Part shown: positions 13,959-37,732 of the stretch, piece by piece
Layout: each line of letters begins with the position of its first letter
Numbering within the stretch: the first letter of the stretch is position 1
Assembly: GCA_937922045.1 (NCBI GenBank)
Contig: CAKZXA010000108.1
Location: 1 to 58,475 of the forward strand
Direction of reading: 5' to 3'
Length of the DNA stretch: 58,475 nucleotides
Source of the DNA: an uncultured Acidimicrobiales bacterium
GTDB lineage: Bacteria; Actinomycetota; Acidimicrobiia; Acidimicrobiales; SZUA-35
Program-made: the position numbers and the translations under genes
Notes under the pieces: generated by a model
Databases searched by the model: none
Told to the model about the DNA's origin: nothing
The model's input: only the letters and a program-made list of their open reading frames with translations

Positions 13959-14443
13959 GCGCCGCCTCCTTGTGCTGACTGCCCTGAGGCGCTGAGTACG
14001 GCTTTCACAATGTTGTGGTAGCCGGTGCAGCGGCAAAGATTGCCCTCAAGCCCTTCGCGCACCTCATGTTCGGAGGGTTTGGGGTTTTCGTTGAGCAGCG
14101 ACGTGGCCGCCATCACCATTCCCGGTGTGCAGTACCCACACTGCAGGCCATGGCATTCCATGAAGGCCTGCTGCATCGGGTGAAGCTCGCCGCTCACGGC
14201 CAGCCCTTCGATGGTGGTGATGTTTGCGCCGCGGGCCTGAGCGGCCAGCATGGTGCATGACTTGGCTGATTCCCCGTCAATGTGGATCGTGCACGCTCCG
14301 CATGAAGACGTGTCGCATCCAACGTTTGTGCCGGTGAGGCCTAGGTCGTCCCGCAGGAAATGCACCAGCAAGGTTCGCGGTTCGACGTCGGCAGAGTGGG
14401 ACTGTCCGTTGACAGTCATCTCGAGCCTTATCTTGTCCGACAA
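13955..14443 (-). CDS. coxS: Molybdenum hydroxylase 2Fe-2S subunit (CoxS-like)
   Basis: The small subunit carries two [2Fe-2S] clusters linking the molybdenum site to FAD. The 162-residue product has the plant-type ferredoxin motif CDTSSCGAC plus a later SC in the N-terminal half, and the helical C-terminal cluster motifs CGYCTPGM and LCRCTGY. It is the first gene of the S-L-M operon and overlaps coxL by four bases. No molybdenum cofactor biosynthesis genes are in the window. Confidence 0.92.
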
Positions 14444-17388: not shown

Positions 17389-17929
17389 AGTAACTCCAGC
17401 TGGTGGCGGCGCCACCGATGGGTTCGAAGTAATCAGCAAGAGGCTGTTCGAGGTATTCGAGCTGTACTTCCATTCGCTCCGCATACCAGCGCTCGGGCAA
17501 GATCAGATCGAAGAACCCGCTGGCACTGCCGATCTTTGTTTGAGCACAAACGATGATGGTGGGCGCTATCTCGTCTTCGTCATTGTCGATGACACCGACA
17601 AGTGTCTCCGGGCCAAGACCAATCCGAGCCTCGATGGCGCAGACGGCGGCTCGCGCTGCGTGCTGTCGGGCCGCCGCGTCACCGACGACATCCTCAGGCA
17701 CCGGCGTCGTGCAGCCCTCATCCGCACCAACCCGCCCTACCGACAAAGCCCTGCTGGCGCTCGTCAAGCCTTGGGTTAGGGCTTGCTCGCGATAGAGAAT
17801 CACACCGATGTCGGCAATGAAGGTCATCAGGAGCAACAGGATCGGCAAAACGAGCGCCACCTCGACCAGCACTGACCCTCGATCGGCCTCGGAGGAACGT
17901 CGTCGCCATACCTCATTCTCTGTCCTCAC
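17381..17929 (-). CDS. TadE-like protein
   Basis: The 182-residue product begins with a charged segment and then DRGSVLVEVALVLPILLLLM, a TadE-type hydrophobic helix with the conserved glutamate next to the small-residue cleavage region. The rest is predicted extracytoplasmic with paired cysteines. It is the first of two paralogous TadE-like genes that overlap by eight bases, and is divergent from the TadG-like gene with an 88-base intergenic region that must hold both promoters. Likely a minor pseudopilin; no direct evidence for its partner. Confidence 0.75.
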   Translation of the reverse strand: MRTENEVWRRRSSEADRGSVLVEVALVLPILLLLMTFIADIGVILYREQALTQGLTSASRALSVGRVGADEGCTTPVPEDVVGDAAARQHAARAAVCAIEARIGLGPETLVGVIDNDEDEIAPTIIVCAQTKIGSASGFFDLILPERWYAERMEVQLEYLEQPLADYFEPIGGAATSWSYCV

Positions 17930-18017
17930 ACCTGAAGTGTCGGCGCTCCCCGGCCAGAGCTTAAGGGGAGATGCTACTCAAGGGATAGTCGATCAGCCCG
18001 ATAAAGAAGACATATCT

Positions 18018-20000
18018 ATGATCTATCCGGCGACTAGCCAGGCGACCAAAGGTTCGAGGCATGAGCTCAGAGTCGATGAATCAGGGGCCATCCTCTGGAT
18101 CTCTTTGGCGTTGCTGGTGCCGCTGATCGTGATCGCCGCCTTCGTGCTCGACCTGGCCAGCGCCTACCTCAATCGAACCGAACTCCAACAAACAGTGGAT
18201 ATCGCCGCCCTTGCCGCCGCTCAGGATCTGCCCGACACGGCCGCCGCAGTCTCCTCCGTGAAGGCTTACGCGCTCGACAACTACGGCTTTACCGAAACCG
18301 ATTGGCAGAACTGCAGCGACCCCGAACCGTTGGAAATCACCGTGCCGACCGGTCACGCCTGCATCACCTTCAGCGCCAACTTCACCAAGGTCCGGGTCCA
18401 GCTGCCCCCCACCGACGTGCCGACGGCGTTCGCCCGCCTCATCGGGCATGAAAGCTTTACCGTGGGCGCCGCAGCCACCGCTGGCACCTTCAGTCCCGCT
18501 GACCAGATCCAGGTCCTGCCAGCAACGGTGACCGCCCAGATGGGAACCGGACTCCTCTGCATTGAAAACGCGGGCAACAACGTCGACTGCGGCAACCGCA
18601 CCTCCGGCAACTTCGGCAGTATCAACGCCCCACGACTCGAGGTGTTGGTTCCAGCCAGCGGCTCCGATTTTGATGAACTCGCCATCAACTATGCGATGAA
18701 CCTGGACCACGGTATCGAGCCTTGGGATGGTACGGCGTCGCGAGTTTGCGACGGCAAAATCGTTTCACCATGCCTGGCCTCAAGCACGCAAGGTCAGATG
18801 CCAAACCACCTCGTCATCAGCACCGGCAACGACATTCGTCCCGTGACCGAAGGGTATGTGACCGGCTTCACCACCGAAGTGGTCGACCACGGCATCTTGT
18901 CGTTCTGCGGTCGCCTGACCAGGCCTGATCTCTCCAACGAAACGGTGCTCGATACCTACCCCGGCGACTGTCTCAAGGCCGGCGAGCCCACAATGCAGCT
19001 CCTGGGCAACACCATCAACGGACGCCACATCTACTACTGGATGAAAGACCATGCTCGTGCTGCGTTCTACCCCGAGGTCGTCGCTCTCGGCTACAGCGAT
19101 GAGTCCCCCCAGCTCGTGTCGACCAACCCCGTGTTTCATGCGGGCGATGCCCGGCTTGACTGCTTCGTTGCCGGCTATCGCTGGGATCCTGCCACAACAG
19201 CTGAGACCATCCCTCACTGTCTGGGAACCACTGCCCAAACCGTTGAAGACGATTTCGAGGTCGTTGGTTCGTTGAGCAACAGCACCGGTTCTGAGCCATG
19301 GCTCGGCGATTGGACACCGGTTGGAACGCCCGCAACCGTTGACGTGTACAACGGCGCCATCGTCTACGAGACCTTCCGAAACTCGGACCAGGGATCGTGG
19401 CAGCGATCCTTCGACGCTTCAACCGCCATGGCTTCAAACGCCGATCTCACCGTCGAGCTCGGCTACAACCACAACCGGTTCGGAAACGTCGACGGTCGCA
19501 TGTACGTTTACGCCGTTAATGAAGCGGGATCCAGCCAGCTGCTCTTGGTCAACGATGGCACAACGGCAGCCCAGCCACTGTTGACAGTTTCCGTGCCGCA
19601 TTCGTTCCTCACGCCGACGATGACGATCGAGGTCGATTTCGTCAATCTCGCCAACAGGTACAACGCCAACGGCTCCGATTTCATGTCGCTGCATTTCATC
19701 CGGATCAGCTGGGATGCCTACAACTCCTCGCCGGCTACGCCGATCTTCAAGGGCGAAATGACCAATGACCCCCGCTATTCGGTAATCCCCCGGGTTTCGA
19801 GCTGGGCCACCAATGGCGACCACGCTGCACCCCTCGATGGGTTCTGGTCGGCCTACACCTACAACATCTACGCCACCAACACCAAGGTGGCTGGCTTCGA
19901 TGGGTGGGTTATGGACCCGGGTCTGATTGAGAACTACGAACCATCCTCAAATATGAGCTTCGGGTTCTCGCCTACGCCTCGCGTCCAGCTGGTGGACTAG
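18018..20000 (+). CDS. TadG-like protein with large extracellular domain
   Basis: The N-terminus (about residues 14-45) reads ESGAILWISLALLVPLIVIAAFVLDLASAYLNRTELQQ, shown here in part only as ESGAILWISLALL, which is the TadG-like helix followed by the TELQQTVDIAALAAAQ segment common to TadG. The remaining ~580 residues are extracytoplasmic, with several cysteines and a C-terminal part that looks like a beta-sandwich (VYNGAIVYETF...). The start chosen is ATG 18018, preceded by AAGAAGA; the frame is open to 17808 but that part overlaps the divergent TadE gene and lacks protein character. 660 residues. Probably a minor pilus or surface component; exact role unknown. Confidence 0.72.
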   Translation: MIYPATSQATKGSRHELRVDESGAILWISLALLVPLIVIAAFVLDLASAYLNRTELQQTVDIAALAAAQDLPDTAAAVSSVKAYALDNYGFTETDWQNCSDPEPLEITVPTGHACITFSANFTKVRVQLPPTDVPTAFARLIGHESFTVGAAATAGTFSPADQIQVLPATVTAQMGTGLLCIENAGNNVDCGNRTSGNFGSINAPRLEVLVPASGSDFDELAINYAMNLDHGIEPWDGTASRVCDGKIVSPCLASSTQGQMPNHLVISTGNDIRPVTEGYVTGFTTEVVDHGILSFCGRLTRPDLSNETVLDTYPGDCLKAGEPTMQLLGNTINGRHIYYWMKDHARAAFYPEVVALGYSDESPQLVSTNPVFHAGDARLDCFVAGYRWDPATTAETIPHCLGTTAQTVEDDFEVVGSLSNSTGSEPWLGDWTPVGTPATVDVYNGAIVYETFRNSDQGSWQRSFDASTAMASNADLTVELGYNHNRFGNVDGRMYVYAVNEAGSSQLLLVNDGTTAAQPLLTVSVPHSFLTPTMTIEVDFVNLANRYNANGSDFMSLHFIRISWDAYNSSPATPIFKGEMTNDPRYSVIPRVSSWATNGDHAAPLDGFWSAYTYNIYATNTKVAGFDGWVMDPGLIENYEPSSNMSFGFSPTPRVQLVD

Positions 20001-24081: not shown

Positions 24082-27000
24082 TCAGCGGCGTGCGCCAGCG
24101 GCGCGCGCAGCATCGTCTTCATCTGATCCCTTTTCGGGGCGACTCAGGTCGATCCCCAACTCTTCGGCGGTACGGAACAGTTCGTCGTCCATCTCCCGCA
24201 TCTCAATCTCTGCCCCGTCCTCGGCCAGTACCTCAACGTTGAGGCACAGAGCCTGCATCTCCTTGATGAGAACCTTGAAGCTCTCGGGGATGCCTGGTTC
24301 AGGGATGTTCTCGCCCTTAACAATGGCCTCATAGACCTTGACCCGGCCCAACACATCGTCGGACTTGATGGTCAACAGTTCCTGGAGGCAGTAGGCGGCG
24401 CCGTATGCTTCGAGCGCCCACACTTCCATCTCACCGAAGCGCTGGCCACCGAACTGAGCCTTACCACCAAGCGGCTGCTGGGTGATCATGGAGTACGGAC
24501 CGGTGGAACGGGCGTGAATCTTGTCGTCAACCAAGTGAGACAGCTTCAGGATGTACATGATCCCGACCATCACCGGATTGTCGAACGCCACGCCGGTTCG
24601 ACCGTCGTAGAGCACGGCCTTGCCGTCGGGCTGAATCAGCCGTTCGCCGTCGAGGGCTTCAGGGTTCAAGTTCAGGAAGATTTCCTGAATGGTTGGGTGC
24701 TTGCCCGCAAGCTCCACCTCGTCCCACTTGGCCCCGTCGAACACGGGGGTGGATACGAGGGTTGCCGGCGTGGTGAAGGGGCGAGTCTTGTTTTCGGTAT
24801 TACGTACCGGATCCTCGCCGACCTTCTGGCCCTTGACATTCCAGCCCCATCGAGCCGCGTAGCCGAGGTGCGATTCGAGCACCTGACCCACGTTCATACG
24901 CGACGGGACACCCAGAGGGTTAAGGATGATGTCGACGGGAGTGCCGTCGGCCATATACGGCATGTCTTCTACCGGCATGATGCGGGAGATGACGCCCTTG
25001 TTGCCGTGGCGTCCGGCCAGCTTGTCGCCAACCGAAATCTTCCGCTTCTGAGCCACATAGACCCGCACCAGCTGGTTCACACCAGGGGGCAGCTCATGGC
25101 TGTCGTCCCGGTTGAAGACCTTGACGTCGATGACCTTGCCGGTTTCACCGTGAGGCACCTTAAGCGAGGTGTCTCGAACTTCGCGAGCCTTCTCGCCGAA
25201 GATGGCCCGAAGGAGGCGTTCCTCTGGCGTGAGCTCGGTCTCGCCCTTAGGGGTGACCTTGCCGACCAGCACATCGCCGGGACCAACATCAGCACCAACG
25301 CGGACGATGCCGCGCTCGTCGAGGTCGGCCAGGATATCTTCGGAGAGGTTCGGGATGTCCCGAGTGATCTCCTCAGGTCCGAGCTTGGTGTCCCGGGCGT
25401 CGATCTCATGCTCTTTAATATGGATCGACGTCAGCACATCGTCTTTTTGGAGACGCTCGGAGAGGATGATCGCATCCTCAAAGTTGTAACCCTCCCACGG
25501 CATGAAGGCGACGACAAGATTCTTGCCGAGCGCCAGCTCACCGTTATCGGTGGAGGGCCCATCAGCTAGGAGTTCACCGGCCTTGAAGGTGTCACCTGCA
25601 CTCACTCGTGCCTTTTGGTTAATGCAGGTGTCCTGATTGGAGCGGGCGAACTTCAGCAGACGGTAAACCTTCTTACCGGTCTTCTTGTACTCGACCGTGA
25701 GATTGCGGCCGTCGGCTTGGATGACAACGCCATCCTCCTCGGCCACGAGAGTGTCGGCCGCGTCGGCCGCCGCTCGCTTCTCAATGCCGGTACCAATATA
25801 AGGTGCCTCCGCGGTGAGCAAAGGAACAGCCTGACGCTGCATGTTGGCGCCCATGAGGGCGCGGTTTGCGTCGTCGTGCTCCAGGAAGGGAATGAGGCCG
25901 GTGCCGATCGAAACGATCTGTTTCGGCGACACGTCCATCATCTGGACCTCGTCGGCCGGAACCTGACTGATCTCGGTGGTAGCACCGAAGAACACATCTC
26001 GTTCCAGCTGCAACTTCAGGTCTCGCAGCGAAGCGGCCTGCGGCGAGCGCCGAGCCAGAATACGGTCGTCGAGGAACGTGCCGTCTTCGTTGACCTTGGC
26101 GTTGGCCTGAGCAACGACGTACTCCTCTTCCTCATCGGCGGTAAGGAAAACGATCTCGTCGCTGACCTTGCCGTCGTTGACCTTACGGTACGGAGTTTCG
26201 AGGAACCCGAAGTCGTTCACCCTGGCGTAGCTCGACAGATAGCCGATCAGGCCGATGTTCGGACCCTCGGGCGTTTCGATTGGGCACATCCGGCCGTAGT
26301 GCGAGAAGTGAACGTCTCGTACTTCGAAACCGGCGCGTTCACGGCTCAGACCACCAGGGCCAAGCGCCGAAAGACGCCGGCGGTGAGTGAGGCCGGAAAG
26401 TGGGTTGACCTGGTCCATGAACTGGGACAGCTGTGAGGTTCCGAAGAACTCCTTGATAGCGGCCACAACCGGACGAATATTGATCAGGGTCTGAGGCGTG
26501 ATGGCCTCGACGTCCTGGGTGGTCATGCGCTCGCGCACCACCCGCTCCATGCGGGACAGGCCGATACGCACCTGGTTCTGAATCAACTCGCCCACCGAAC
26601 GAACGCGGCGGTTGGCGAAGTGGTCCTGGTCGTCGAGTCGGTAGCCCGGCTCAGCGATCATGAGGTGCAGCAGGTAGGTGGAAGCGGCGAGTACTTCGCA
26701 GCGACTCAGCACCGGCTGATCGATCTCTGGCTTGTCCAGATCGAGCATCGGGAACAGCTTCTCGAGCTTGCCGATCTCAGGACCGAGCTTACGATTCAGC
26801 TTGTAGCGCCCGACCCGTGAAAGGTCGTAGCGACGGTTCTCGAAGAAGGCGTTACGCATGTAGGTGCGAGCTGCTTCGAGGGTAGGTGGCTCGCCCGGAC
26901 GGGCTCGCTTGTAGATTTCGACGAGGGCTTCATCCTGGGTTGGAGCAATCTCGCGATCCTTTTCCCATTGCCCTTCGAGGAATTCATAGTGGCGCACGAA

Positions 27001-27666
27001 TGCTTCGAGGAAGCCAGGGGCGTTCTCCTCGTCGTACCCAAGGGCGCGGAGCAAGGTGAACAGCGACAAGCGACGCTTGCGAGCCACCCGCACGCCGGCG
27101 GTTGGATCCTTACCCGGCTTCTGCTCGACATCGAACTCGATCCACTCGCCTCGATAGGGGTGGATGGTGCCAGTGACCATCTGGTGCTTGGCAAGGTTAC
27201 GCAGACGGAAACGCTCACCAGGCTGAAAAATCACACCGGGTGAACGAACGAGCTGCGATACGACGACACGCTCGGTGCCGTTGATCACAAACGTTCCCTT
27301 GTCGGTCATCAAGGGGAAATCGCCCATAAAGACGGTTTGTTCCTTGATTTCACCGGTCTGGGCATTGATGAACCGGGCCCGAACAAAAATCGGGGCCGAG
27401 TACGTCATGTCCTTTTCTTTGCATTCTTCCACCGAGAATTTCGGATACGGCTTCAGATCCTCATCGTGAGGGTCGTACTCCAGCTCCAGTTGGAGAGTCT
27501 CAGTAAAGTCCTTAATCGGACTTATGTCTTGGAAAGCGTCTGCGAGTCCCTGCTCCAGAAACCAGGTGAACGAATCACGCTGGACGGCAATCAAATCAGG
27601 AAGTTCAATGGCTTCCTGAAGATTACCGAAGGAGTAGCGGTCGCGAGCAACAGTACGTGCAGGCAA
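24082..27666 (-). CDS. rpoB: DNA-directed RNA polymerase subunit beta
   Basis: RpoB contributes the other half of the catalytic cleft and the rifampicin pocket. The 1194-residue product starts at TTG 27666 ([15 protein letters not shown]). The rifampicin region reads [20 protein letters not shown], where valine stands at the place of asparagine 518 (E. coli numbering) and arginine at lysine 527. The remaining contacts (S512, Q513, D516, H526, R529) are unchanged. Late conserved motifs such as [21 protein letters not shown] are intact. It has its own sigma-70 promoter about 155 bases upstream and no link to rplL, which is almost 10 kb away. Confidence 0.99.
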
Positions 27667-27821: not shown

Positions 27822-27850
27822 ATAGTACGAGTTTTCTTGTCGAAGGTCAA
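27822..27850 (-). promoter_or_regulatory. Sigma-70-type promoter of rpoBC
   Basis: On the minus strand TTGACC (27845-27850) and TACTAT (27822-27827) are separated by exactly 17 bases, a strong housekeeping-type promoter. Transcription should begin near 27815, giving a leader of about 150 bases before the TTG start of rpoB. It provides rpoBC with its own promoter at the junction with the mycofactocin cluster. Confidence 0.75.
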
Positions 27851-27963: not shown

Positions 27964-29151
27964 CTAGGATTTTCGAGGATCACCCAAACCGGTGAAAAAA
28001 TTGGGGTCACGAATAACGATATCTTCGGGTGTCAGACCCTTGAGATCGCTTTTTCCGAGGCCGAGCATCGCGGAATCGATGCCGTTTCGCAAAACATCGA
28101 GCACATTCTCCACGCCAGCCTGCCCATTTGCGGCCAAGCCCCAAAGGTAGGCACGACCGATCATCACCGCCCTCGCCCCGAAGGCAACGGCTTTGACCAC
28201 ATCGCTTCCTCGACGGATACCACCATCGAGCACAACCTCGATCTCGTCGCCAACCGCAGCAACCACCGCAGGCAGTGCCCGAATGGTGGCCGGCGTGCCG
28301 TCCAGATTGTTGCCACCATGGTTGGACACCGACAGGGCGGTCATTCCCGCTTGCACCGCCCGGCGGGCATCGTCGGGCCGCATGATGCCCTTGACCATCA
28401 TCGGGCCACCCCACGCTTCGGCCAACCACGCCAAGTCATCCCACGTCGGCGGGGCCGTCTGCATCCATTCACCGTAGGCACCGAAAAAGGTCGGAGCCTC
28501 CTGGCCAGGCAGGGCCATGTTGGGTGCTAGCAGTGTGGGCAACTCGCGTCGTTTCAGATAGGTCCACAACCAGCGGGGACGAACGAGCGCTTCGGGGGCG
28601 TGGCGAGCCATCGCCTTCAGGTCGATTTTGTCGGGAATCTGAGGGCTTCCCCAGTCGCGGCTGTGGGTAAAGGTCCAGTCAAGGGTGACGATGGCACCAG
28701 CCGCTCCCGCATCCCTTGCGCGCTGCATCCGCGTCTCCATATCGTCGCGCCCGCCCGACCAGTAGAGCTGGATGAAGGTCTGGGGATTTGCCTCGATCAC
28801 CTCTTCAATAGGTTTGGAAGCGAACGAACTCAAACCGATCACCGTGCCACGAGCAGCAGCAGCCCTGGCTACCGCCACCTCGCCATCGGGGTGTACGGCC
28901 TGGACGCCGGTCGGCGACATGATCACCGGCATCGAAATCGGTTGGCCCATGAGGGTGGTCGACAGGTCACGCTCAGCCGACAGATCAGCAACCCGAGGAA
29001 CGAATCCAAGTTCATCGAACGCAGCACAGTTGTCTTCGAGGGTCAGGCCTCGCTCAGCCCCAGCCCAAAGGGCATTGTAGACCGACGATGGCAACCTACG
29101 TTTTGCCTGCTCGCGTGCAACCGCGACGCTCTCGAACCAATCATTTGCCAT
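27964..29151 (-). CDS. mftD: Pre-mycofactocin synthase MftD
   Basis: MftD is an FMN enzyme of the lactate-dehydrogenase/glycolate-oxidase family that oxidatively deaminates AHDP, the product released by MftE, to pre-mycofactocin. The 395-residue product has the FMN-site motifs SNHGGNNLDG, DGGIRRGSDVVKA and GRAYLWGL. The N-terminal part WFESVAVAREQAKRRLP is typical of MftD. It is the last gene of the cluster, 15 bases after mftF. In mycobacteria mftD sits between mftC and mftE; here it has moved to the end. Confidence 0.92.
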   Translation of the reverse strand: MANDWFESVAVAREQAKRRLPSSVYNALWAGAERGLTLEDNCAAFDELGFVPRVADLSAERDLSTTLMGQPISMPVIMSPTGVQAVHPDGEVAVARAAAARGTVIGLSSFASKPIEEVIEANPQTFIQLYWSGGRDDMETRMQRARDAGAAGAIVTLDWTFTHSRDWGSPQIPDKIDLKAMARHAPEALVRPRWLWTYLKRRELPTLLAPNMALPGQEAPTFFGAYGEWMQTAPPTWDDLAWLAEAWGGPMMVKGIMRPDDARRAVQAGMTALSVSNHGGNNLDGTPATIRALPAVVAAVGDEIEVVLDGGIRRGSDVVKAVAFGARAVMIGRAYLWGLAANGQAGVENVLDVLRNGIDSAMLGLGKSDLKGLTPEDIVIRDPNFFTGLGDPRKS

Positions 29152-29166
29152 CCAGGTCCGCCTTTC

Positions 29167-30693
29167 TCAAAGAGTTTCGTCTACCCAGCCACAGTCGCTT
29201 TTGGGCGACAGAAGCCGAGCAATCGTTCTGGGCACACCAAGGCTAGATGGATCGAGGCGTGGTGTCAGAACCGACCACCGACGAAGAGCAACCGCACCCC
29301 GCCACACACCTACTCCGTAGGCCGCCTCTTCCACCATATGAACAACGGTGGCGGTTGCTTTCTGGCTCACCGTGCCGGGCCGTTTCACTGCCTCGATGAC
29401 AGGCCGAGCCGCTATGGTCGCCGCCAAACGCCAACGCGTCGCCGCGCTGAAACCACCAAACGGCGTCAACGTGATCAAGGCAACGAGCGGTGTCCAGAAC
29501 TGATTCAGGTACCGACTCAGACCTAGCCCGGTCTGTACCACTCCCTCAGCCACCGCCTTGGCTGTTCCGTCCGTTGGAAGATCGGAGCGACGCAGTTGAG
29601 CTCGGAGAGAAGTAACCATCACCCCATACAAGGCCAAGGCCGACGCTGGCCGGCCCGCGAGAAACGCTACTGCGGTCGCGGTTGGCATCATCAGCAGCCG
29701 AAGTGGGTCTACCGTGCCCGGGTGGCGTTGGTCGAGGTCGGCTGCCGATCTCCCGTAACGAAACCGACGGGCGAGCAGGGCCGGCCAGGTGTCGAGCTCG
29801 TGATGAACAATCTCGACACTCGGGTCATAGCGAACCCGACCATCGCCAAGTCGCCAGACGAGGTCGACGTCTTCGCCGTAGCGAAGCGCAGGATCGAAGA
29901 CCGCTCCGTCTCCAAGGTCAGCGAGGGCGGCGGTGCGAACGAGCAGTGCAGCGGTGGGAACGTAGGGCACCGCTCGGCCGGGAGCGACCAGCGACGGATT
30001 CGGTCCCATGTCGAGGGGACAAAAAGACGAAGCGTACCGCTGGGCCGATGTTCGCTGACCCCGGCCAACGATGCGCGGCGCCACCGCGGCCAGGCTCTTG
30101 TGATCTGATGGCTGCGGGTCGAGAACCGTGAGATGCCGCAGGAGGCGAGCCAGCCAACCGGTGCTGTGGGGAACCTCGCAATCACTATCCAGAAACAAGA
30201 TGTAGGGTGTGGAAGCTTCGCACAGTCCGGTGTTTCGGGCCGCCGATGGGCCACCAGAGGCGGGCCGTGTGACCACCGTGACGGTGCCATGGCGCCGGGC
30301 CATCGCAGACAGGTTGTCGGCTTCGGTCTTTCCGGAGCCATCGTCGACCACGATCACCGGCACATCCGGCTCGGACGCGTTAAGGCTGTGGAGCAGACGA
30401 TCGACGCCAGCCGAGCGGTCCTTGACCGGGATCACGATCGTCACGCCGTCGATGAGAGCCGACGGCACCGGCTCGGCATGGGCCAGGCCAGCGGCGACGA
30501 GCCGACGACCCAAGGTGCGAGCCCGGTCGCTCAACGTCTCGCCTTGTTCACCCATCAGTTCGTCGAGGGCGGCGACACCAGCACCACTCAAACGCAGGAA
30601 TCGCCGCGGGTGCCCGCCAAAGAGAAGGTCGGGCCGCAACCGTCGAGTCGTCCTATCGAGCTCGAAATGAGCATAAGCCACCGAAGAGGTCAT
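29167..30693 (-). CDS. mftF: Mycofactocin glycosyltransferase MftF
   Basis: MftF is a family 2 glycosyltransferase that adds a beta-1,4-glucan chain to the mycofactocin core. The 508-residue product has an N-terminal domain of about 80 residues, then the GT2 domain beginning DGVTIVIPVKDRSAGVDRLL with the motif VDDGSG, and the DSDCEVP segment standing for the DxD sugar-nucleotide site. C-terminal hydrophobic stretches (TATAVAFLAGRPASALALYG and later) suggest membrane association. It lies 14 bases after the SDR gene and before mftD. Confidence 0.92.
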   Translation of the reverse strand: MTSSVAYAHFELDRTTRRLRPDLLFGGHPRRFLRLSGAGVAALDELMGEQGETLSDRARTLGRRLVAAGLAHAEPVPSALIDGVTIVIPVKDRSAGVDRLLHSLNASEPDVPVIVVDDGSGKTEADNLSAMARRHGTVTVVTRPASGGPSAARNTGLCEASTPYILFLDSDCEVPHSTGWLARLLRHLTVLDPQPSDHKSLAAVAPRIVGRGQRTSAQRYASSFCPLDMGPNPSLVAPGRAVPYVPTAALLVRTAALADLGDGAVFDPALRYGEDVDLVWRLGDGRVRYDPSVEIVHHELDTWPALLARRFRYGRSAADLDQRHPGTVDPLRLLMMPTATAVAFLAGRPASALALYGVMVTSLRAQLRRSDLPTDGTAKAVAEGVVQTGLGLSRYLNQFWTPLVALITLTPFGGFSAATRWRLAATIAARPVIEAVKRPGTVSQKATATVVHMVEEAAYGVGVWRGAVALRRWSVLTPRLDPSSLGVPRTIARLLSPKSDCGWVDETL

Positions 30694-30707
30694 CGAGTTG
30701 CCACGGT

Positions 30708-31526
30708 CTACAAGCTCAATCCGCCATCGGCGGCGAGCGTCTGTCCGGTAATCGCCGACGAGTCGGGCCCGGCGACGAAGGCGATAACAGCCGCCACCTC
30801 AGCGGGTTCGAGGATACGGCCGACCGCCTGATGGGATGCGAACTCACTGGTGTCGTCGAGATCGTAGAGTCGGGCCGAGTGCTCCAGCATCGCCGTTTCG
30901 GTCGAGCCTGGACTGACGGCGTTGGCGGTCACCCCTGTTCCGCCGAGCTCGACCGCTAGGGAACGGACAAGGCCAGAGACCCCAGCCTTCGACGCGCTAT
31001 AGGCCGCCAACTTCGGCAAGCCTCGAGCAGCAGCGGCCGAGGCCACGGCGATGAACCGGCCTTGGCGAGGCTCGGGGGTGGCGAGCAGTGCGGGGATGGC
31101 AGCCCTGGCCAGATGCATGATGCCAAAAAGATTGATCTCGACGATTGTGCGCTCATGGTCAATCGGCAGTTCCCAACCATCGACACCGCCTCCGATAACC
31201 CCGGCGCAACCAATAGCGGCGTCGAGACGGCCAAATCGATCAACTGTTTCCGCCACCGCATCGACGAGATCAGAGGCACGGCGAACATCGACCACCTTCG
31301 TGGCCACCACGCCCGGTGGGCTGGCTCGACCGGCCACGGCCGCCAGCTCGTTGGCGGTGCCAAGCGGGTAGCCCAGTTGGGTCAATGATGGGTCGGTTTC
31401 GCCGTCGAGATCGACGGCCATGACCGCCCAGCCCGCGACCGCAAGCAGCTCTACACAGGCGGCCCCGATCCCCCGAGCCGCTCCGGTGACGAGAGCGACA
31501 CGAGGTTGCTGGTCAACCTGGGTCAT
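30708..31526 (-). CDS. Mycofactocin-coupled SDR family oxidoreductase
   Basis: Short-chain dehydrogenases in mycofactocin clusters are nicotinoproteins whose tightly held NAD(P) is thought to be recycled by mycofactocin. The 272-residue product has the cofactor motif TGAARGIG near residue 15, the catalytic serine in VASAAAARG and YSASK with the tyrosine and lysine. Compared with free SDRs, the region after strand 2 has an insertion (residues about 45-75), consistent with the mycofactocin-dependent subfamily. It overlaps mftE (ATGA) and lies inside the cluster between mftE and mftF. The substrate alcohol or carbonyl is unknown. Confidence 0.88.
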   Translation of the reverse strand: MTQVDQQPRVALVTGAARGIGAACVELLAVAGWAVMAVDLDGETDPSLTQLGYPLGTANELAAVAGRASPPGVVATKVVDVRRASDLVDAVAETVDRFGRLDAAIGCAGVIGGGVDGWELPIDHERTIVEINLFGIMHLARAAIPALLATPEPRQGRFIAVASAAAARGLPKLAAYSASKAGVSGLVRSLAVELGGTGVTANAVSPGSTETAMLEHSARLYDLDDTSEFASHQAVGRILEPAEVAAVIAFVAGPDSSAITGQTLAADGGLSL

Positions 31527-32275
31527 GACTTCTCAGGCAACATATTCTCAGGCGACATGGCCGATACTCGTCTGGCTATCGCCTCAACGATCCGATCGAT
31601 CATCTCGTCCATGAGCACCCGGCCGTGCTCGGCTGTCGCCAGCGTTGGATCGCCGAGCACTCCCGATGGGCTAACGGCCCGCACCCCGCCCGAGCGCATA
31701 GCCGGAAGGAGCTCGGCCAGTGAGCCCGTATGGCCAACGGTGGCAAGATCAAGCGACACTTCGCCCGGGCGGAGATAGAGCTGGATCGAGGTTTCGGTGG
31801 CACCGGCATGGAGATCGCCGCCCCAGTCCGGTTCGATCAGCATCACCGTCGGCGACTCGGCCTCCAAGGTGGCCATGGCTCGGCGCAGAGCTTCGGCGTT
31901 GCCCCCGTGACCTGAAATCAACACGACCAAGCCAAAAGTGGAGCGAGCAGAACGCACAAGTTCCACGACTATCTGCTCGGTGGCGGCCTGCCCAATAGAG
32001 AGTGTGCCAGCAAAGCCCTCGTGCTCACCGCTCGATCCGTAGGGCAGTGCCGGCGCCACAAGCAGATCGAGAACTCCAGCCTCCTGGCGTTCAACACCAT
32101 CGGCTAGCACCCTCTCCGCGATCCCGAGCGACAGTGCTACCGCTATGTCGGTATCGGTAGACAGGGGCAGGTGGGGTCCGTGTTGTTCGGTTGAGCCGAC
32201 GGGGATGACGAGTACAGCACCAGCCTCAGCCCTGGCTTTCACCTCGGGCGAGGAGAGACCGCTGAGCTGGATCAA
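31523..32275 (-). CDS. mftE: Mycofactocin precursor peptidase MftE
   Basis: MftE is a creatininase-family metallopeptidase that cuts the modified MftA to release the C-terminal AHDP unit. The 250-residue product shows the family's metal-ligand motif STEQHGPHLPLSTDTDIA near residue 30 and SGHGGNAEALR in the middle. The start is TTG at 32275, overlapping the mftC stop (TTGA). It overlaps the SDR gene by four bases at its end, so translation is coupled along this stretch. Confidence 0.92.
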   Translation of the reverse strand: MIQLSGLSSPEVKARAEAGAVLVIPVGSTEQHGPHLPLSTDTDIAVALSLGIAERVLADGVERQEAGVLDLLVAPALPYGSSGEHEGFAGTLSIGQAATEQIVVELVRSARSTFGLVVLISGHGGNAEALRRAMATLEAESPTVMLIEPDWGGDLHAGATETSIQLYLRPGEVSLDLATVGHTGSLAELLPAMRSGGVRAVSPSGVLGDPTLATAEHGRVLMDEMIDRIVEAIARRVSAMSPENMLPEKS

Positions 32276-33474
32276 GGACGGACTGCGGGCTCAAAACCGG
32301 CGAGGGGGCTTTCATCGCAAGCTCGGTCTGGCCTGGTTTGACGGCTCTGACGACCCATCATCACGGGCACAGGTTTTGAGTGATCGACGCTGGGCCGTGG
32401 CACACCGGCAGCGCCAGCGCCGCTTCCGGCCGCCACCAGAGCGGTTTCGCCGTAGCCCTTGACACATTCAGGATCAGGACCATCGAGGGGCAAGCCGGTG
32501 AAGAACTTGGCGGCCATACACCCACCGCGGCACGTGTCGAAAGCATCGCACGAGCTACAGGCCCCACCTTCTAATGGCGCTAATGGAACCCGGAGTGACT
32601 CGAAAAGCTCAGAATGCTTCCACACCTGCTCGAACCCACCTGGCGATCGAACGTTGCCAGCCAGAAACTCGTCATGGATCGTGAAGGGGCAGGCGTACAC
32701 ATCGCCAACGGGGTCGATCAAGCAAACGACACGTCCAGCTCCGCAAAGGTTGAGGCCAGCGAGCGGATCGCCAAATGCGGCGAGGTGAAAGAAGGAGTCT
32801 CCGGTCAGCACGTTCTCGCCATTGGCCATCAGCCAGTCGTACAGCTCCCGCTGCTGGTCGGCGGTCGGGTGCAGATCGTCCCACACATCGACCGCCCGCC
32901 CCGAGGGGCGAAGCCGGGTGATGCGGAGCTGGGCCTTGTAGTGATCGGCGATCGCCTTGAACCGATCGAGCTGGCCGATGTTCTCCCGAGTGGTAACGAC
33001 GGAGATCTTGAAGTTCTCGACCCCGGCCGCCTTGAGGTTGTCCATGGCGGTCATGGCCATGTCGAAGGTGCCCTCGCCCCGAATCGGGTCGTTTACGTCG
33101 GGGGTGGCACCATCGAGGGAAATCTGTACGTCGACATAATCGCTCGCCGCCAACCTGCGGGCAACGTCGAGCGTGATCTTAGACCCGTTGGTCGAGAACT
33201 TGACGCCGACATGGTGAGCGGTGGCGTAGTCGACCAGCTCCCAGAAGTCTCTGCGCACCGTTGGCTCGCCGCCGCCGATGTTCACGTAGAACACCTGCAT
33301 CCGCTCGAGCTCATCGATGATGGCTTTGCATTCCTCGGTGGACAGTTCATTGGGATCGCGGCGCCCTGAACTCGAAAGACAATGCACGCATTCGAGGTTG
33401 CAGGCGTACGTCAGCTCCCAGGTGAGACAGATCGGAGCTTCCAATCCAAGCTGGAATTCATCGACCAGTTTCAT
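32272..33474 (-). CDS. mftC: Mycofactocin radical SAM maturase MftC
   Basis: MftC uses S-adenosylmethionine and an iron-sulfur cluster to decarboxylate the C-terminal tyrosine of MftA and then link it to the preceding valine. The 400-residue product has the radical-SAM motif CNLECVHC (cysteines 25, 29, 32) and a SPASM domain with cysteines in CGAGRVVC, YACPF, CSSC, DTCRGGC and PEC. The C-terminal ~50 residues after the SPASM domain look poorly structured. It follows mftB by 71 bases. Confidence 0.95.
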   Translation of the reverse strand: MKLVDEFQLGLEAPICLTWELTYACNLECVHCLSSSGRRDPNELSTEECKAIIDELERMQVFYVNIGGGEPTVRRDFWELVDYATAHHVGVKFSTNGSKITLDVARRLAASDYVDVQISLDGATPDVNDPIRGEGTFDMAMTAMDNLKAAGVENFKISVVTTRENIGQLDRFKAIADHYKAQLRITRLRPSGRAVDVWDDLHPTADQQRELYDWLMANGENVLTGDSFFHLAAFGDPLAGLNLCGAGRVVCLIDPVGDVYACPFTIHDEFLAGNVRSPGGFEQVWKHSELFESLRVPLAPLEGGACSSCDAFDTCRGGCMAAKFFTGLPLDGPDPECVKGYGETALVAAGSGAGAAGVPRPSVDHSKPVPVMMGRQSRQTRPDRACDESPLAGFEPAVRP

Positions 33475-33545
33475 CCGTCACGCTTCCCTTGTTCGTCGAG
33501 GCCTTCATCGATTTTCTCACCATTACCTTCAGCCGGGATTCACTT

Positions 33546-33857
33546 TTAGCTGGGTTTCCCAGCCGGGATTCTCGGCTGGATCATGCCGCTCGCCGCCAGA
33601 GCCACAAGTGCTCCGACGATGGCGGGCCGTCGCTCAGCAGGGATCTCTGCCTTATCGAGCGCATCGTCGACCGTAGGGCACTCCACCAACAGCCTTACCA
33701 CCGCCAGGAGGTCGGGAGCTTTCACAAAGGAGAGCTGCCGAGTGCCGAAATGGTAGAGCAGGCCGCCGAAGCGTTCCGGACGAATCTGGACGCGTTCGTC
33801 CAAGGTCCACGGCCCTTCCAGAGTGGGGGGCGCGGTGTCGTCGGCCACAGGAGCCAC
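33546..33857 (-). CDS. mftB: Mycofactocin chaperone MftB
   Basis: MftB is the RiPP recognition element protein that binds the MftA leader and presents it to MftC. The 103-residue product begins at GTG 33857 and shows the winged-helix-like segment RPERFGGLLYHFGTRQLSFVKAP, characteristic of the family, followed by helical sequence. It lies 36 bases after mftA and before mftC, the same order as in characterised clusters. Confidence 0.9.
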   Translation of the reverse strand: MAPVADDTAPPTLEGPWTLDERVQIRPERFGGLLYHFGTRQLSFVKAPDLLAVVRLLVECPTVDDALDKAEIPAERRPAIVGALVALAASGMIQPRIPAGKPS

Positions 33858-33893
33858 GGTGTTCGCTTGATCCGTTGTCGTGATCAGCGACGT

Positions 33894-34037
33894 CTAGTAG
33901 ACGCCGCACATCCCGTCGATGGAGACTTCCTCCACCAACAACTCTTCTTCCACCAACACGGTCGATTCGGTATCGACCGACGCCTCGGAGGCTGAGCCGT
34001 CCGTTGTCGCCATTTCCACGTCAGGTTGTTCGATCAT
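33894..34037 (-). CDS. mftA: Mycofactocin precursor peptide MftA
   Basis: This 47-residue peptide is the substrate from which the cofactor is made. It ends in IDGMCGVY: the terminal valine and tyrosine become the redox-active ring. The leader is acidic (ESTVLVEEELLVEEVS) and is what MftB binds. The ATG is at 34037 and the TAG stop at 33894-33896. A TACGCT hexamer ends seven bases before the A of the ATG, so the mRNA could be leaderless; an AGGA also lies directly before the start. It is too short for most gene finders. Confidence 0.95.
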   Translation of the reverse strand: MIEQPDVEMATTDGSASEASVDTESTVLVEEELLVEEVSIDGMCGVY

Positions 34038-34248
34038 GGTCCTAGCGTAGCTCGCGGCACAGCGCCGAACGAAGCCGGGGCGAGCAACCCCGCACAGAGC
34101 GGCCTAGCTACACCTCGGCAATTTCGACTGCGACCGAGCCGCCTGCTAGCGTCACGAAGGCAGGCGGCAACGAGGATGGGCGGCGAGTCTGTCCATCTCT
34201 GTTGACCCAACACCTAACAACGCCAAAGATCGAATCGGGGGATTCACC
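34038..34248. promoter_or_regulatory. Divergent promoter region between mftA and alcohol dehydrogenase
   Basis: This 211-base gap drives the mycofactocin operon leftward and the alcohol dehydrogenase operon rightward. On the plus strand TTGACC (34202-34207) and AAAGAT (34225-34230) have a 17-base spacer and precede a GGGGGA ribosome binding site. On the minus strand TACGCT lies just before mftA. No MftR-type TetR gene lies next to it and I see no clear TetR palindrome, so regulation is open. Confidence 0.45.
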
Positions 34249-35406
34249 ATGAAGACACGTGCAGCCATCCTTTGGGAACTCGACAGCCCATGGAGCGTCG
34301 AAGAGATCACGCTCGATCCACCAAAGGCGGGCGAAGTACTCATCAAGCTCGTCGGATCAGGGCTCTGCCATTCAGACGAGCACCTCGTCACCGGCGACAT
34401 CAGCTTCACCCCAGAGCAGGAAACCGAAATGGGGATCCAGCTTTTTCCCATCATCGGTGGACATGAGGGGGCTGGCGAGGTCATCGAGGTGGGCGAAGGT
34501 GTAACCAGCGTGAAGCCTGGCGACCATGTGGTCCTCGGCTTCATTCCGAGCTGCGGCCGATGCCCATCATGTTCAACCGGTAACCAGAACCTGTGTGATC
34601 TCGGCGAGTTCCTGCTTGCCGGCAAGCAGGTCACCGATTTCACCTCCCGCCACCATTCCTCCAGCGGCCAAGACCTCGGCATCATGTGCTGCATCGGCAC
34701 CTTTGGCGAATACACGGTTTGCTCCGAAGCATCGTGCATCAAGATCGAGCCCGATATCCCACTCGACAAGGCCGCTCTCGTCGGCTGTGGCGTTACCACC
34801 GGTTGGGGTTCAGCCACCTACGCGGCCGACGTGAAATCAGGCGAAACCGTCGTGATCGTCGGCTGTGGCGGTGTGGGTATGAACGCCGTCCAGGGTGCAG
34901 CTATGGCTGGCGCCGCCCACGTTATTGCGCTCGACACCGATGAATCCAAGCGAGAGCGGGCCGCCACCTTTGGTGCCACCCATGCCGTTGGCTCATTCGA
35001 GGAAGCCACCGAGCTCATCGGTGAACTCACCTACGGCGCTATGGCCAACAAGGCCATCATCACGGTGGGCGAAGGCGACGGCAATCTCATCGCCCCGACC
35101 ATGGCTCTCATCGGCAAGGGCGGGCGAACCGTCCACACGTCGGTGGCTCCCATCAGCGATGTCGACGTGCAACTCAGCCTTTTCGACCTCACCCTGATGC
35201 AGAAGGAACTGGTGGGTTCGATTTTCGGCTCGGCCAATCCACGCCGAGACATTCCACGCCTGCTGCGCATGTATCAAGAGGGCAGCCTCAAACTCGACGA
35301 ATTGATCACCCAGACCTACACCTTGGACGACATCAACGTCGGCTACCAAGACATGCGCGATGGCAAGAACATCCGCGGCATGGTGATGCACAGCCACGCT
35401 TCATAG
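34249..35406 (+). CDS. NDMA-dependent (mycofactocin-associated) alcohol dehydrogenase
   Basis: This zinc-dependent medium-chain dehydrogenase belongs to the type whose NAD cofactor is not exchanged and which needs an artificial acceptor (NDMA) in vitro; mycofactocin is thought to be the natural acceptor. The 385-residue product has the catalytic zinc ligands in GLCHSDEH and GGHEGAGE, the structural zinc cysteines in CGRCPSCSTGNQNLC and the coenzyme motif GCGGVGMNAV. It is divergent from mftA and the first gene of an operon with a MoxR ATPase (12 bases) and a VWA protein. Confidence 0.92.
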   Translation: MKTRAAILWELDSPWSVEEITLDPPKAGEVLIKLVGSGLCHSDEHLVTGDISFTPEQETEMGIQLFPIIGGHEGAGEVIEVGEGVTSVKPGDHVVLGFIPSCGRCPSCSTGNQNLCDLGEFLLAGKQVTDFTSRHHSSSGQDLGIMCCIGTFGEYTVCSEASCIKIEPDIPLDKAALVGCGVTTGWGSATYAADVKSGETVVIVGCGGVGMNAVQGAAMAGAAHVIALDTDESKRERAATFGATHAVGSFEEATELIGELTYGAMANKAIITVGEGDGNLIAPTMALIGKGGRTVHTSVAPISDVDVQLSLFDLTLMQKELVGSIFGSANPRRDIPRLLRMYQEGSLKLDELITQTYTLDDINVGYQDMRDGKNIRGMVMHSHAS

Positions 35407-35418
35407 TCGGCCTTCATC

Positions 35419-36306
35419 TTGAATCCCCCCACGGCTCAGGCCGCAACAGATCGTTCCATCGTTGGCCGCCAACGCGAGACCGAACTCGTGTTGGCGGCCC
35501 TCGAGGCTTCCTGCCATGTGGTGCTTGAGGGTCCGCCCGGCACAGGTAAGTCAACGCTGCTGCGATCGGTCGCGGCCCAGACGGACACATCGTTCGTCTT
35601 CGTCGAAGGCAACGCCGAGCTGACCCCCGGCCGTCTGGTCGGACATTTCGACCCGGCTCAGGTCTTGACCAAGGGCTATGACCCGTCGGTCTTTATCGAT
35701 GGGCCACTCGTCACCGCCCTACGGGACGGCGCCCTTCTCTATGTTGAGGAGATCAACCGGGTTCCGGAGGAAACGCTCAACCTCCTGATCACGGTGATGT
35801 CGGAGGGCGAGCTCATGGTTCCGAGGCTCGGCCTCCTCAAGGCTGATCCTTCGTTCAGGCTTGTGGCCGCCATGAATCCCTTCGATTCGGTCGGCACTGC
35901 GCGCATCTCCGGCGCCATCTACGACCGGGTCTGCCGGATCGTCATGAACTACCAAGACGGCTCCGACGAAGTCGCCATCGTGGCCCAAACCCACCCCGAA
36001 GCCGAGGCCGACTTCGTGGCAAAAGTTGTCGAGGTGGTCAGAGCAACTCGCGTCCACCCCGAACTGCGCATGGGATCATCGGTGCGCGGGGCTATCGATC
36101 TGGTTGCTATCGCATCGAGGCTCGCCGAGCGCCGAGGCCAGGCTTCAAACGATCCGGTCGGCGGCCTGGATGCAGCCTTGGTCGCTCTCAGCGGACGGGT
36201 GCGGCCGTTCGAGGGAGGGGCGCGCTCGGTCGAGTCGATCATCAGCGACCTTTGGCACGCCACCTTTGGCACCTCCGCCGCAGAGGACCCGCCGGGAAAA
36301 GGCTAG
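35419..36306 (+). CDS. MoxR-family AAA+ ATPase next to mycofactocin cluster
   Basis: This 295-residue ATPase has Walker A GPPGTGKST (residues 38-46), Walker B ALLYVEEINR, a sensor segment VAAMNPFD and an arginine-rich RISGAIYDRVCR, with an overall likeness to MoxR and magnesium-chelatase I subunits. It begins 12 bases after the alcohol dehydrogenase stop (TTG start, no strong ribosome binding site) and overlaps the VWA gene. MoxR-VWA pairs usually activate a metalloenzyme, so the zinc alcohol dehydrogenase upstream is a plausible client; that is inference from gene order. Confidence 0.86.
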   Translation: MNPPTAQAATDRSIVGRQRETELVLAALEASCHVVLEGPPGTGKSTLLRSVAAQTDTSFVFVEGNAELTPGRLVGHFDPAQVLTKGYDPSVFIDGPLVTALRDGALLYVEEINRVPEETLNLLITVMSEGELMVPRLGLLKADPSFRLVAAMNPFDSVGTARISGAIYDRVCRIVMNYQDGSDEVAIVAQTHPEAEADFVAKVVEVVRATRVHPELRMGSSVRGAIDLVAIASRLAERRGQASNDPVGGLDAALVALSGRVRPFEGGARSVESIISDLWHATFGTSAAEDPPGKG

Positions 36307-37271
36307 ACGCCCCGTGGGGACCCTCGGGGCTGACGCTCGACCAGGTGGTCGAAGGCGCTGAAGCGTCGGAGATGGTGGCCGAACAGCAACGGCAAACCAC
36401 CTCGCGTCGAAACCTATCCAAGCACGACCACTTCGACGAGGTGAGTCCTGAGGTCGGCGTGCTGGACGAGTCCGCCTTTACCGACCTCCACGAGACCGAG
36501 CCAGACGAGGCTCTCTCGATGTTGTCGGATCTCACCGCTGCCACCGATCAGCGACTGCGCGAATTGGCACGCCGTCTGGCCGGACGCCTAGTGCTGGAGC
36601 TCGGCCGAACCGGACCGCTCGAAACACGCGGCGTTGGGCGGCTTCGGTCGGTCCGATTCGACGGATCACCCAGCGATCTCGACCTGGAAGCCAGTCTCGA
36701 AGCTATTCAGCAGGCCCAAGCGACAGGGGAGGCGGTGAATGTCGATGACCTCTACCTCAGCCGGTGGGCCCGTCCGGCGACCGCCATCTGCCTGCTGGTC
36801 GACCGAAGCGGTTCGATGGGTGGTGAGCGTTTAGCCACCGCGGCCGTGGCGGTGGCCGCCTGCGCCTGGCGAGCGCCGGATGATCACAGTGTCGTCGCCT
36901 TTTCCGACAAGGCCATCGTGGTCAAGAGCCAGGAAGTATCGCGCCCACCCGACAAGGTGGTCGACGACGTTCTGAGCTTGCGAGGCCACGGGCCGACCGA
37001 CCTCGCCCTCGCCCTAACAACCGCCTTCGATCAGCTGGCCAGGTCGAAGGCGAAGCGACGCCTCGTCGTGCTCCTGTCTGACTGTCGGCCAACAGCGGGC
37101 TCAGACCCCATCCTGACCGCCGCCCGACTCGACGAGCTGTGTATCATCGCTCCCTCTTCCGACGCCGAGGATGCGCAGGAATTCGCAACCACGGTGGGAG
37201 CTCGGATAGGGCTACTCAGCGGGCCGTCAGCCATTCCGTCGGTCCTCACCGAACTGCTCAATCCGAGCTAG
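36252..37271 (+). CDS. VWA domain protein, partner of MoxR ATPase
   Basis: The C-terminal ~190 residues are a VWA domain with the MIDAS motif LVDRSGSMGG and the later threonine in GHGPTD. The N-terminal part is acidic and helical and shares features with magnesium-chelatase D and CoxE-type proteins. The open frame gives 339 residues from ATG 36252, overlapping the ATPase gene by 55 bases; the true start may be a later GTG near 36345 or ATG 36372. It forms a unit with the ATPase. A hairpin terminator follows 12 bases after the stop. Confidence 0.8.
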   Translation: MARHLWHLRRRGPAGKRLDAPWGPSGLTLDQVVEGAEASEMVAEQQRQTTSRRNLSKHDHFDEVSPEVGVLDESAFTDLHETEPDEALSMLSDLTAATDQRLRELARRLAGRLVLELGRTGPLETRGVGRLRSVRFDGSPSDLDLEASLEAIQQAQATGEAVNVDDLYLSRWARPATAICLLVDRSGSMGGERLATAAVAVAACAWRAPDDHSVVAFSDKAIVVKSQEVSRPPDKVVDDVLSLRGHGPTDLALALTTAFDQLARSKAKRRLVVLLSDCRPTAGSDPILTAARLDELCIIAPSSDAEDAQEFATTVGARIGLLSGPSAIPSVLTELLNPS

Positions 37272-37363: not shown

Positions 37364-37732
37364 TTACTTGAGGTCGGCGGAACCGCCAGCCTCTTCGATC
37401 TTGGCCTTTGCGGCTTCAGCGTCTTCCTTCTTGGCGCCTTCGAGCACGGCGTTGGGGGCACCCTCAACCATGTCTTTGGCTTCCTTGAGGCCAAGGCCGG
37501 TGAGCTCGCGCACAGCCTTGATGACCTGGATCTTCTTGTCGCCAGCGGCGGTGAGAACGACGTCGAATTCGGTCTGCTCTTCCGCTGCTTCGGCGGCGGC
37601 AGCCGGAGCAGCAGCAACGGCCATCGGGGCCGACGCTTCAACGCCGAACTTCTCTTCGAAGTCGGTGAGGAGCTCGGAGAGCTCCAGAACGCTCATGCTG
37701 GCAATCGCTTCGAGAATTTCTTCCTTACCCAT
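37364..37732 (-). CDS. rplL: 50S ribosomal protein L7/L12
   Basis: L7/L12 forms the stalk that recruits translation factors. The 122-residue product has the N-terminal dimerisation helix, an alanine-rich hinge ([13 protein letters not shown]) and the C-terminal factor-binding domain with [17 protein letters not shown]. Its ATG overlaps the rplJ stop by one base (TAATG), so the two are translationally coupled. Confidence 0.97.

Follow-up and report, generated by a model that had tools for sequence, protein, structure and literature searches.

A MoxR-VWA gene pair beside the mycofactocin locus of an uncultured Acidimicrobiales bacterium appears to encode a hitherto unreported helper for mycofactocin-dependent dehydrogenases

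Mycofactocin is a peptide-derived electron carrier known from many actinobacteria. Here we analyzed a mycofactocin (mft) locus and its adjoining dehydrogenase-MoxR-VWA operon in a stretch of 58,475 nucleotides (nt) from an uncultured Acidimicrobiales bacterium (SZUA-35; GCA_937922045.1, contig CAKZXA010000108.1, positions 1-58,475), hereafter the window. The host genome amounts to 4.88 Mb in 128 contigs and is 96.9% complete. As judged by co-occurrence and gene neighbourhood, in this order and several further groups of actinobacteria the gene pair for a MoxR-type AAA+ ATPase and a VWA protein belongs to the working mycofactocin machinery, and it seems to be a so far unreported helper for dehydrogenases that depend on mycofactocin.

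The minus strand between 27964 and 34037 was translated and scanned with NCBIfam models against their curated cut-offs. All seven genes that a preliminary description of this DNA had placed there scored above the cut-offs in these profile searches (TIGR03962, TIGR03969 and related families), which the same description had proposed as a check. In the direction of transcription, the genes are mftA (33894-34037; mycofactocin precursor, 47 amino acids (a.a.); TIGR03969, 47.4 bits, cut-off 25), mftB (33546-33857; peptide chaperone, 103 a.a., GTG start; TIGR03967, 96.1 bits, cut-off 33), mftC (32272-33474; radical SAM/SPASM maturase, 400 a.a.; TIGR03962, 635.4 bits, cut-off 265), mftE (31523-32275; creatininase-family peptidase, 250 a.a., TTG start; TIGR03964, 260.5 bits, cut-off 172), the gene for a mycofactocin-coupled short-chain dehydrogenase/reductase (SDR) (30708-31526; 272 a.a.; TIGR04504, 334.8 bits, cut-off 250; NF040491, 306.0 bits, cut-off 265), mftF (29167-30693; glycosyltransferase, 508 a.a.; TIGR03965, 303.6 bits, cut-off 280) and mftD (27964-29151; premycofactocin synthase (flavin), 395 a.a.; TIGR03966, 673.2 bits, cut-off 470.85). 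The mftC-mftE and mftE-SDR pairs overlap by 4 nt each (TTGA and ATGA, as previously noted), and gaps of 14 and 15 nt separate SDR from mftF and mftF from mftD, respectively. The translated MftA ends in IDGMCGVY, in agreement with the preliminary description, and the expected SPASM cysteines are present in MftC, which carries CNLECVHC at residues 25-32 and the SPASM motif CSSCDAFDTCRGGC at 306-319 (C-x2-C-x5-C-x3-C). These seven motif cysteines, together with C16, C244, C251, C262 and C337, are kept in all 112 aligned MftC rows (the window and 111 loci, at least two rows being second copies of loci already included). The biosynthetic genes are all linked within 6.1 kb, and MftC occurs above cut-off as a single copy in the host genome.

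Divergently from mftA, an operon at 34249-37271 on the plus strand belongs to the same locus. Its first gene (34249-35406) encodes an N,N-dimethyl-4-nitrosoaniline (NDMA)-dependent, mycofactocin-linked Zn alcohol dehydrogenase of 385 a.a. (TIGR03989, 563.0 bits, cut-off 440), followed after 12 nt by the gene for a MoxR-type AAA+ ATPase of 295 a.a. (35419-36306), which in turn is overlapped by the gene for a VWA protein of up to 339 a.a. (36252-37271). The divergent start regions of mftA and the dehydrogenase gene are separated by 211 nt (34038-34248), in which a promoter scan gave no promoter-like match and an operator search found nothing clear. With 92 nt from the VWA gene to rplL and 297 nt from mftD to rpoB, the whole locus fills the rplL-rpoB gap (9.7 kb). 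The preliminary description stopped short of both features, overlooking the operon beside mftA and the placement between rplL and rpoB.

The preliminary description had instead emphasized a complete cluster in a rearranged order. The completeness stands, and mftD is indeed last with the SDR gene between mftE and mftF, unlike the mycobacterial A-B-C-D-E-F. The order is not special, however, since B-C-E-SDR-F-D on one strand recurs in 12 of 80 named loci (L007, L008, L009, L011, L012, L014, L015, L016, L030, L034, L047 and L079), which are the best 80 of at least 583 matches to the window MftC in a scan of one genome per species, and not a random draw. The hosts of these 12 loci are Frankiales/Frankiaceae bins, Dactylosporangium, Amycolatopsis, Nocardia, Jatrophihabitans and a Streptosporangiaceae bin. 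All of mftB, C, D, E and F lie on one strand in 41 of the 80, and a C-D-(SDR)-E-F type of order is found in 19. The gene order of the window is thus common and was rejected as the novelty of the locus; the embedded SDR is likewise a member of a named mycofactocin-coupled family.

The MoxR protein was assigned by AAA_5/AAA_3 and by its motifs. The Walker A, sensor and arginine motifs (GPPGT[GS]K[ST], MNP[FY]D and DR..R) are kept in nearly all of 73 aligned rows, and the Walker B motif (YVEEINR in the window) has Glu-Glu, not Asp-Glu, in 73 of 73, whereas a CoxD-like paralogue has VDE. The closest solved sequence is midasin (1.4e-41), followed by CbbQ and NorQ (~1e-11). The VWA protein matches VWA_2 and VWA_CoxE and contains the residues of a metal ion-dependent adhesion site (MIDAS; DRSGS, T, D), the D, S, S and T columns being invariant (100%) and the last D present at 97% in 68 rows. 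Its predicted model is closest to NorD, the PDB search ranking NorD chains from NorQD complexes at places 1-4 and 11; the model is weak (mean predicted local distance difference test (pLDDT) score 64.8, predicted template modelling (pTM) score 0.56), with a low-confidence N-terminus, and many unrelated VWA folds match it too.

We evaluated the co-occurrence of MoxR with MftC in 61 related genomes, scoring MftC by TIGR03962 at the curated cut-off and the window MoxR at E <= 1e-60. Each was found in 33 genomes; 32 had both, 27 neither, one MoxR alone (G012) and one MftC alone (G057) (Fisher, 4.8e-15). Counting once per genus and state left 13 with both, 24 with neither and one of each kind of mismatch (p 2.3e-8), and two genera (g2 and g11) contain some members with neither gene and others with both. 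As a control, the CoxD-like MoxR (window 9576-10499) was present in 59 of the 61 and showed no association with MftC (p 0.21). The MoxR and mftC genes lie on the same contig within 30 kb of each other in 16 of the 31 other both-positive relatives. An even draw of 296 genomes across the phylum, scored at E <= 1e-50 for MoxR, contained MftC in 36, MoxR in 24 and both in 21 (p 1.3e-19), and of the 20 other genomes with both, 15 have the two within 25 kb; absences in this sample are less sure, because at most eight (MoxR) and six (MftC) first-look candidates per genome were scored.

The gene neighbourhood ties the pair to dehydrogenases. Among the relatives, 38 MoxR places were found, 30 of them with loci, and 29 were annotated after exclusion of the window; because the annotation used tblastn with window proteins, distant genes may be overlooked. 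A VWA gene adjoins MoxR in all 29. The gene directly 5' of MoxR is homologous to the window dehydrogenase gene in 17 loci and is mftE in another 11, and one locus has nothing recognised there; mftF comes after the VWA gene in 15, giving the pattern mftE-[dehydrogenase]-MoxR-VWA-mftF. In 26 further loci from the phylum sample, the gene 5' of MoxR codes for a homologue of this dehydrogenase in 18 cases, for an SDR in four and for a further MoxR in two, the remaining two being unrecognised. MoxR also lies within the mft operon in 18 of the 80 named loci, preceded by SDRs in 17 and by mftC in one; VWA was seen in 15 of these 18, and the contig ends near MoxR in the other three. When nine of the dehydrogenases leading to MoxR were checked against NCBIfam, seven SDRs passed TIGR03971 or TIGR04504 and two Zn alcohol dehydrogenases passed TIGR03989, indicating that mycofactocin-coupled enzymes of two unrelated folds hold the same place before MoxR-VWA. 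Four loci (L268, L270, L275 and L276, in G112 and G295) have tandem MoxR genes between two SDRs in front and the VWA gene behind.

A precedent for such a pair is NorQD, which remodels nitric oxide reductase so that iron can be inserted; a finger of the VWA protein sits in the pore of MoxR, and the MIDAS docks on the target (PMC13036017; PMC9976466). By analogy, the window pair most likely uses ATP to remodel mycofactocin-coupled nicotinoproteins, the association being observed and the mechanism argued from the NorQD case. MftB would present MftA to MftC, MftE would cut, MftD oxidise and MftF glycosylate, roles that are established for the families and carried over here by homology. As expected from their families, the SDR inside the cluster and the divergently encoded alcohol dehydrogenase would be nicotinoproteins that hand electrons from alcohols to mycofactocin. 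The NorD-like VWA protein could then dock on a dehydrogenase via its MIDAS, and the NorQ-like MoxR ring could spend ATP to loosen the enzyme, which would let a cofactor (bound NAD, zinc or mycofactocin access) be inserted or replaced. Taken jointly with the pair being a working part of the system and a NorQ/NorD-like remodeller, it is fairly probable that this locus makes mycofactocin and uses it.

To our knowledge, how nicotinoproteins get their non-exchangeable NAD, and how mycofactocin reaches that NAD, is not settled. The MoxR-VWA pair, co-occurring with MftC and standing right behind dehydrogenase genes, is a concrete candidate for both. We tentatively suggest a more specific role, in which the pair would be a dedicated cofactor loader or reactivase that opens SDR and Zn alcohol dehydrogenase folds for the insertion or renewal of buried NAD or for access of mycofactocin; it would then be a new accessory module, absent from mycobacteria and hence missed in model organisms. 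Within the open full texts, subscription papers being outside the scope, we found, among the papers listed, none linking mycofactocin to MoxR or VWA proteins or nicotinoproteins to MoxR; one paper names both mycofactocin and MoxR, but in unrelated lines of an expression table.

The main alternative is that MoxR-VWA serves biosynthesis, for example by metal loading of MftE or by action on MftF or MftD. It agrees with mftE standing directly 5' of MoxR in 11 of 29 relatives' loci and mftF following VWA in 15 of 29, and with metal insertion by the known MoxR-VWA pairs described in PMC13036017 and PMC9976466. We nevertheless consider it rather unlikely, since the gene immediately before MoxR encodes a dehydrogenase in 17 of 29, 22 of 26 and (as SDR) 17 of 18 loci, with two unrelated folds in that place, and since 15 of the 36 MftC-bearing genomes of the phylum sample manage without a MoxR match.

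A further alternative is that the pair, like CoxD/CoxE, matures a molybdenum hydroxylase of the carbon monoxide (CO)-dehydrogenase type that stands beside mftABC in many relatives. Downstream of rpoC, the window has a cox-like group consisting of a CoxE-type VWA gene (8416-9741), an AAA ATPase gene (9576-10499), a flavin subunit gene (10760-11578) and the gene for the molybdenum hydroxylase large subunit (11580-14036). In 14 of the 32 loci of relatives, mftC has a homologue of this large subunit beside it (two identified), which would fit such a role, but the window hydroxylase has its own AAA-CoxE pair (8416-10499) and MoxR-VWA occurs in mft operons without a molybdenum hydroxylase hit (e.g. 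L017, L018 and L143), so that we regard it as improbable. The 14 loci are L116, L117, L119-L123, L127, L128, L130, L134-L136 and L146; in L123 the large subunit gene is followed by genes for two mycofactocin-system old yellow enzyme (OYE) oxidoreductases (TIGR03996 and TIGR03997). The pair may also have some dispensable stress role. A defence role of MoxR was tried and rejected, the PADLOC matches being weak only. That this is an ordinary rearranged mft cluster with an unrelated operon hitchhiking beside it, as the common gene order and the varied inserts in the rplL-rpoB gap of the family (0.3 to 15.7 kb) might suggest, is highly improbable in view of the cross-genus co-occurrence and of the dehydrogenase-MoxR-VWA neighbourhood kept in distant groups.

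Several observations weigh against the preferred explanation of the locus. The ATPase activity of MoxR is uncertain, because the Walker B Asp is replaced by Glu in every aligned row. The adjacency of mftE, not a dehydrogenase, to MoxR in the 11 loci means that a role in biosynthesis fits too. The 15 genomes of the phylum sample with MftC alone, which include all eight of family f57 and four of f22, indicate that the pair is not required for mycofactocin generally, and the eight f57 genomes in particular mean that the module is not universal. Should f57 be Mycobacteriaceae, as genome size leads us to suspect, it would be understandable that mycobacterial studies never came across the pair. Conversely, MoxR matches occur without MftC in the related genome G012 and in G091, G102 and G231 of the phylum sample; those in G091 and G102 are weak and have no dehydrogenase. 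Finally, the MftC tree does not separate a foreign origin of the window gene from a deep branch of the order, grouping with all order relatives being not rejected in the careful tree (p 0.22) or the quick tree (p 0.78).

As to the origin of the mft core, the careful MftC tree (39 rows) joined the window sequence to named loci from distant Actinobacteria (100/99), and forcing it into the clade of its own family, from which G019 of that family was left out as it groups elsewhere, was rejected (p 0.0014). To judge from these trees, the mft core of the window is not the version usual in its own family. A simple transfer of the core from Frankiales, suggested by a first quick tree and a small dehydrogenase tree, was not borne out by larger trees and clade tests: in the larger dehydrogenase tree the window enzyme joins those of G052, G012 and G030, which belong to its order and family (98). 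The window MoxR and VWA group with order relatives, and the window MftD falls, with weak support (82/91), beside G020 and G028 from the same family. Relatives of the same genus carry mftABC elsewhere with other neighbours, and their MftD mostly on other contigs; across the 61 related genomes MftD is above cut-off in 23 (MftC in 33), mostly on a contig other than that of MftC. The base composition of the locus (0.61-0.65 G+C against ~0.60) is not telling.

At the borders of the locus, rplL (37364-37732, minus strand; TIGR00855, 153.8 bits, cut-off 84.4) lies upstream and rpoB (24082-27666, minus strand), named from homology and context with N-terminal parts 92-96% identical in relatives, lies downstream. 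A probable rpoB promoter, TTGACC-17-TACTAT, was found on the minus strand at 27822-27850 by a promoter scan (one match against 1.5 expected by chance). In eight genomes of the same genus in which both genes were seen (G001, G002, G005, G007, G008, G009, G010 and G011), the rplL-rpoB gap measures 333 to ~2140 nt, and no window mft gene was found inside it. In the wider family it reaches 3.3 kb (G019), 6.7 kb (G024) and 15.7 kb (G017), giving a range of 0.3-15.7 kb (loci L208-L221), which indicates that the gap often accepts DNA and weakens the notion of a unique insertion site. About 195-230 nt 5' of rpoB, including TTGACC-17-TACTAT, align with five relatives of the same genus (scores 42-86, shuffle maxima 16-21), and the segment after rplL gave no alignment (scores 8-10), suggesting that the insert sits upstream of a kept rpoB promoter region; expression of rpoBC would not need to depend on the mft genes. 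A second rpoB-like N-terminus, 85% identical, was seen at G011:C9:1539-2123, in a genome with 4% contamination. Elsewhere in the window, near the str and rpoC genes, 3548-6451 and 17808-20000 hold genes for a large protein that combines SdrD_B with carboxypeptidase-regulatory-like domains and for a TadE/G-like protein.

Consistent with the preliminary description, neither MftR nor MftG is adjacent to the cluster. Genome-wide, MftR gave nothing above cut-off (best 101.2 against 224.9 bits), and neither did MftG by TIGR04542, the main model TIGR03970 not having been run genome-wide. The five places matched by TIGR04542 are three open reading frames (ORFs) that are not MftG, namely a choline dehydrogenase, a disulfide-reductase-type flavoprotein and a sarcosine-oxidase-like protein; the choline dehydrogenase, the best of them, scored 334.1 bits with TIGR03970 against a cut-off of 387.45. 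The mycofactocin protein families have been described before, with MftD, MftE and MftR occurring in most but not all systems (Haft 2011), and MftG is reported from 234 of 311 genomes with mftC (~75%), its replacement in the remainder being left open (PMC11778925). No TIGR03971 SDR was found above cut-off genome-wide. TIGR03989 has two members above cut-off in the genome, one beside mftA and the other at G000:C25:11421-12518 (495.9 bits), where no MoxR match was present among the three neighbouring ORFs scanned or listed.

Compared with known systems, the window resembles mycobacterial mftA-F in having all six biosynthetic families above cut-off, the VY end of MftA and the cysteine motifs of MftC. 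It differs in its order A-B-C-E-SDR-F-D, in having no MftR above cut-off and no MftG found within the models run, and in its divergent dehydrogenase-MoxR-VWA operon; it is placed between rplL and rpoB, while the mycobacterial cluster lies near tuf and rpsJ. Loci of Amycolatopsis, Dactylosporangium, Nocardia terrae and others share the B-C-E-SDR-F-D order, but those 12 same-order loci, unlike the window, have no MoxR in the flanks examined (up to 10 kb, some ending at contig ends).

CoxD/CoxE of aerobic CO dehydrogenase combines an AAA protein with a CoxE-type VWA protein, as the window pair does; the mft-linked pair, however, lies ~20 kb from the window molybdenum hydroxylase, which adjoins the separate AAA-CoxE pair with the Walker B VDE. 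NorQ/NorD has the same pairing of MoxR AAA+ and VWA genes, and the predicted VWA model ranks NorD top, whereas the window VWA protein is shorter and its N-terminus is modelled with low confidence, the Walker B Asp is exchanged for Glu and the target would be different. The mft loci of Arthrobacter, Microbacteriaceae, Jiangella and some Streptomyces also have a mycofactocin-linked MoxR-VWA pair, there inside the mft operon, where mostly three to five tandem SDRs precede MoxR and D-E-F follow; their MoxR and VWA proteins are 44-50% and 32-36% identical, respectively, to those of the window.

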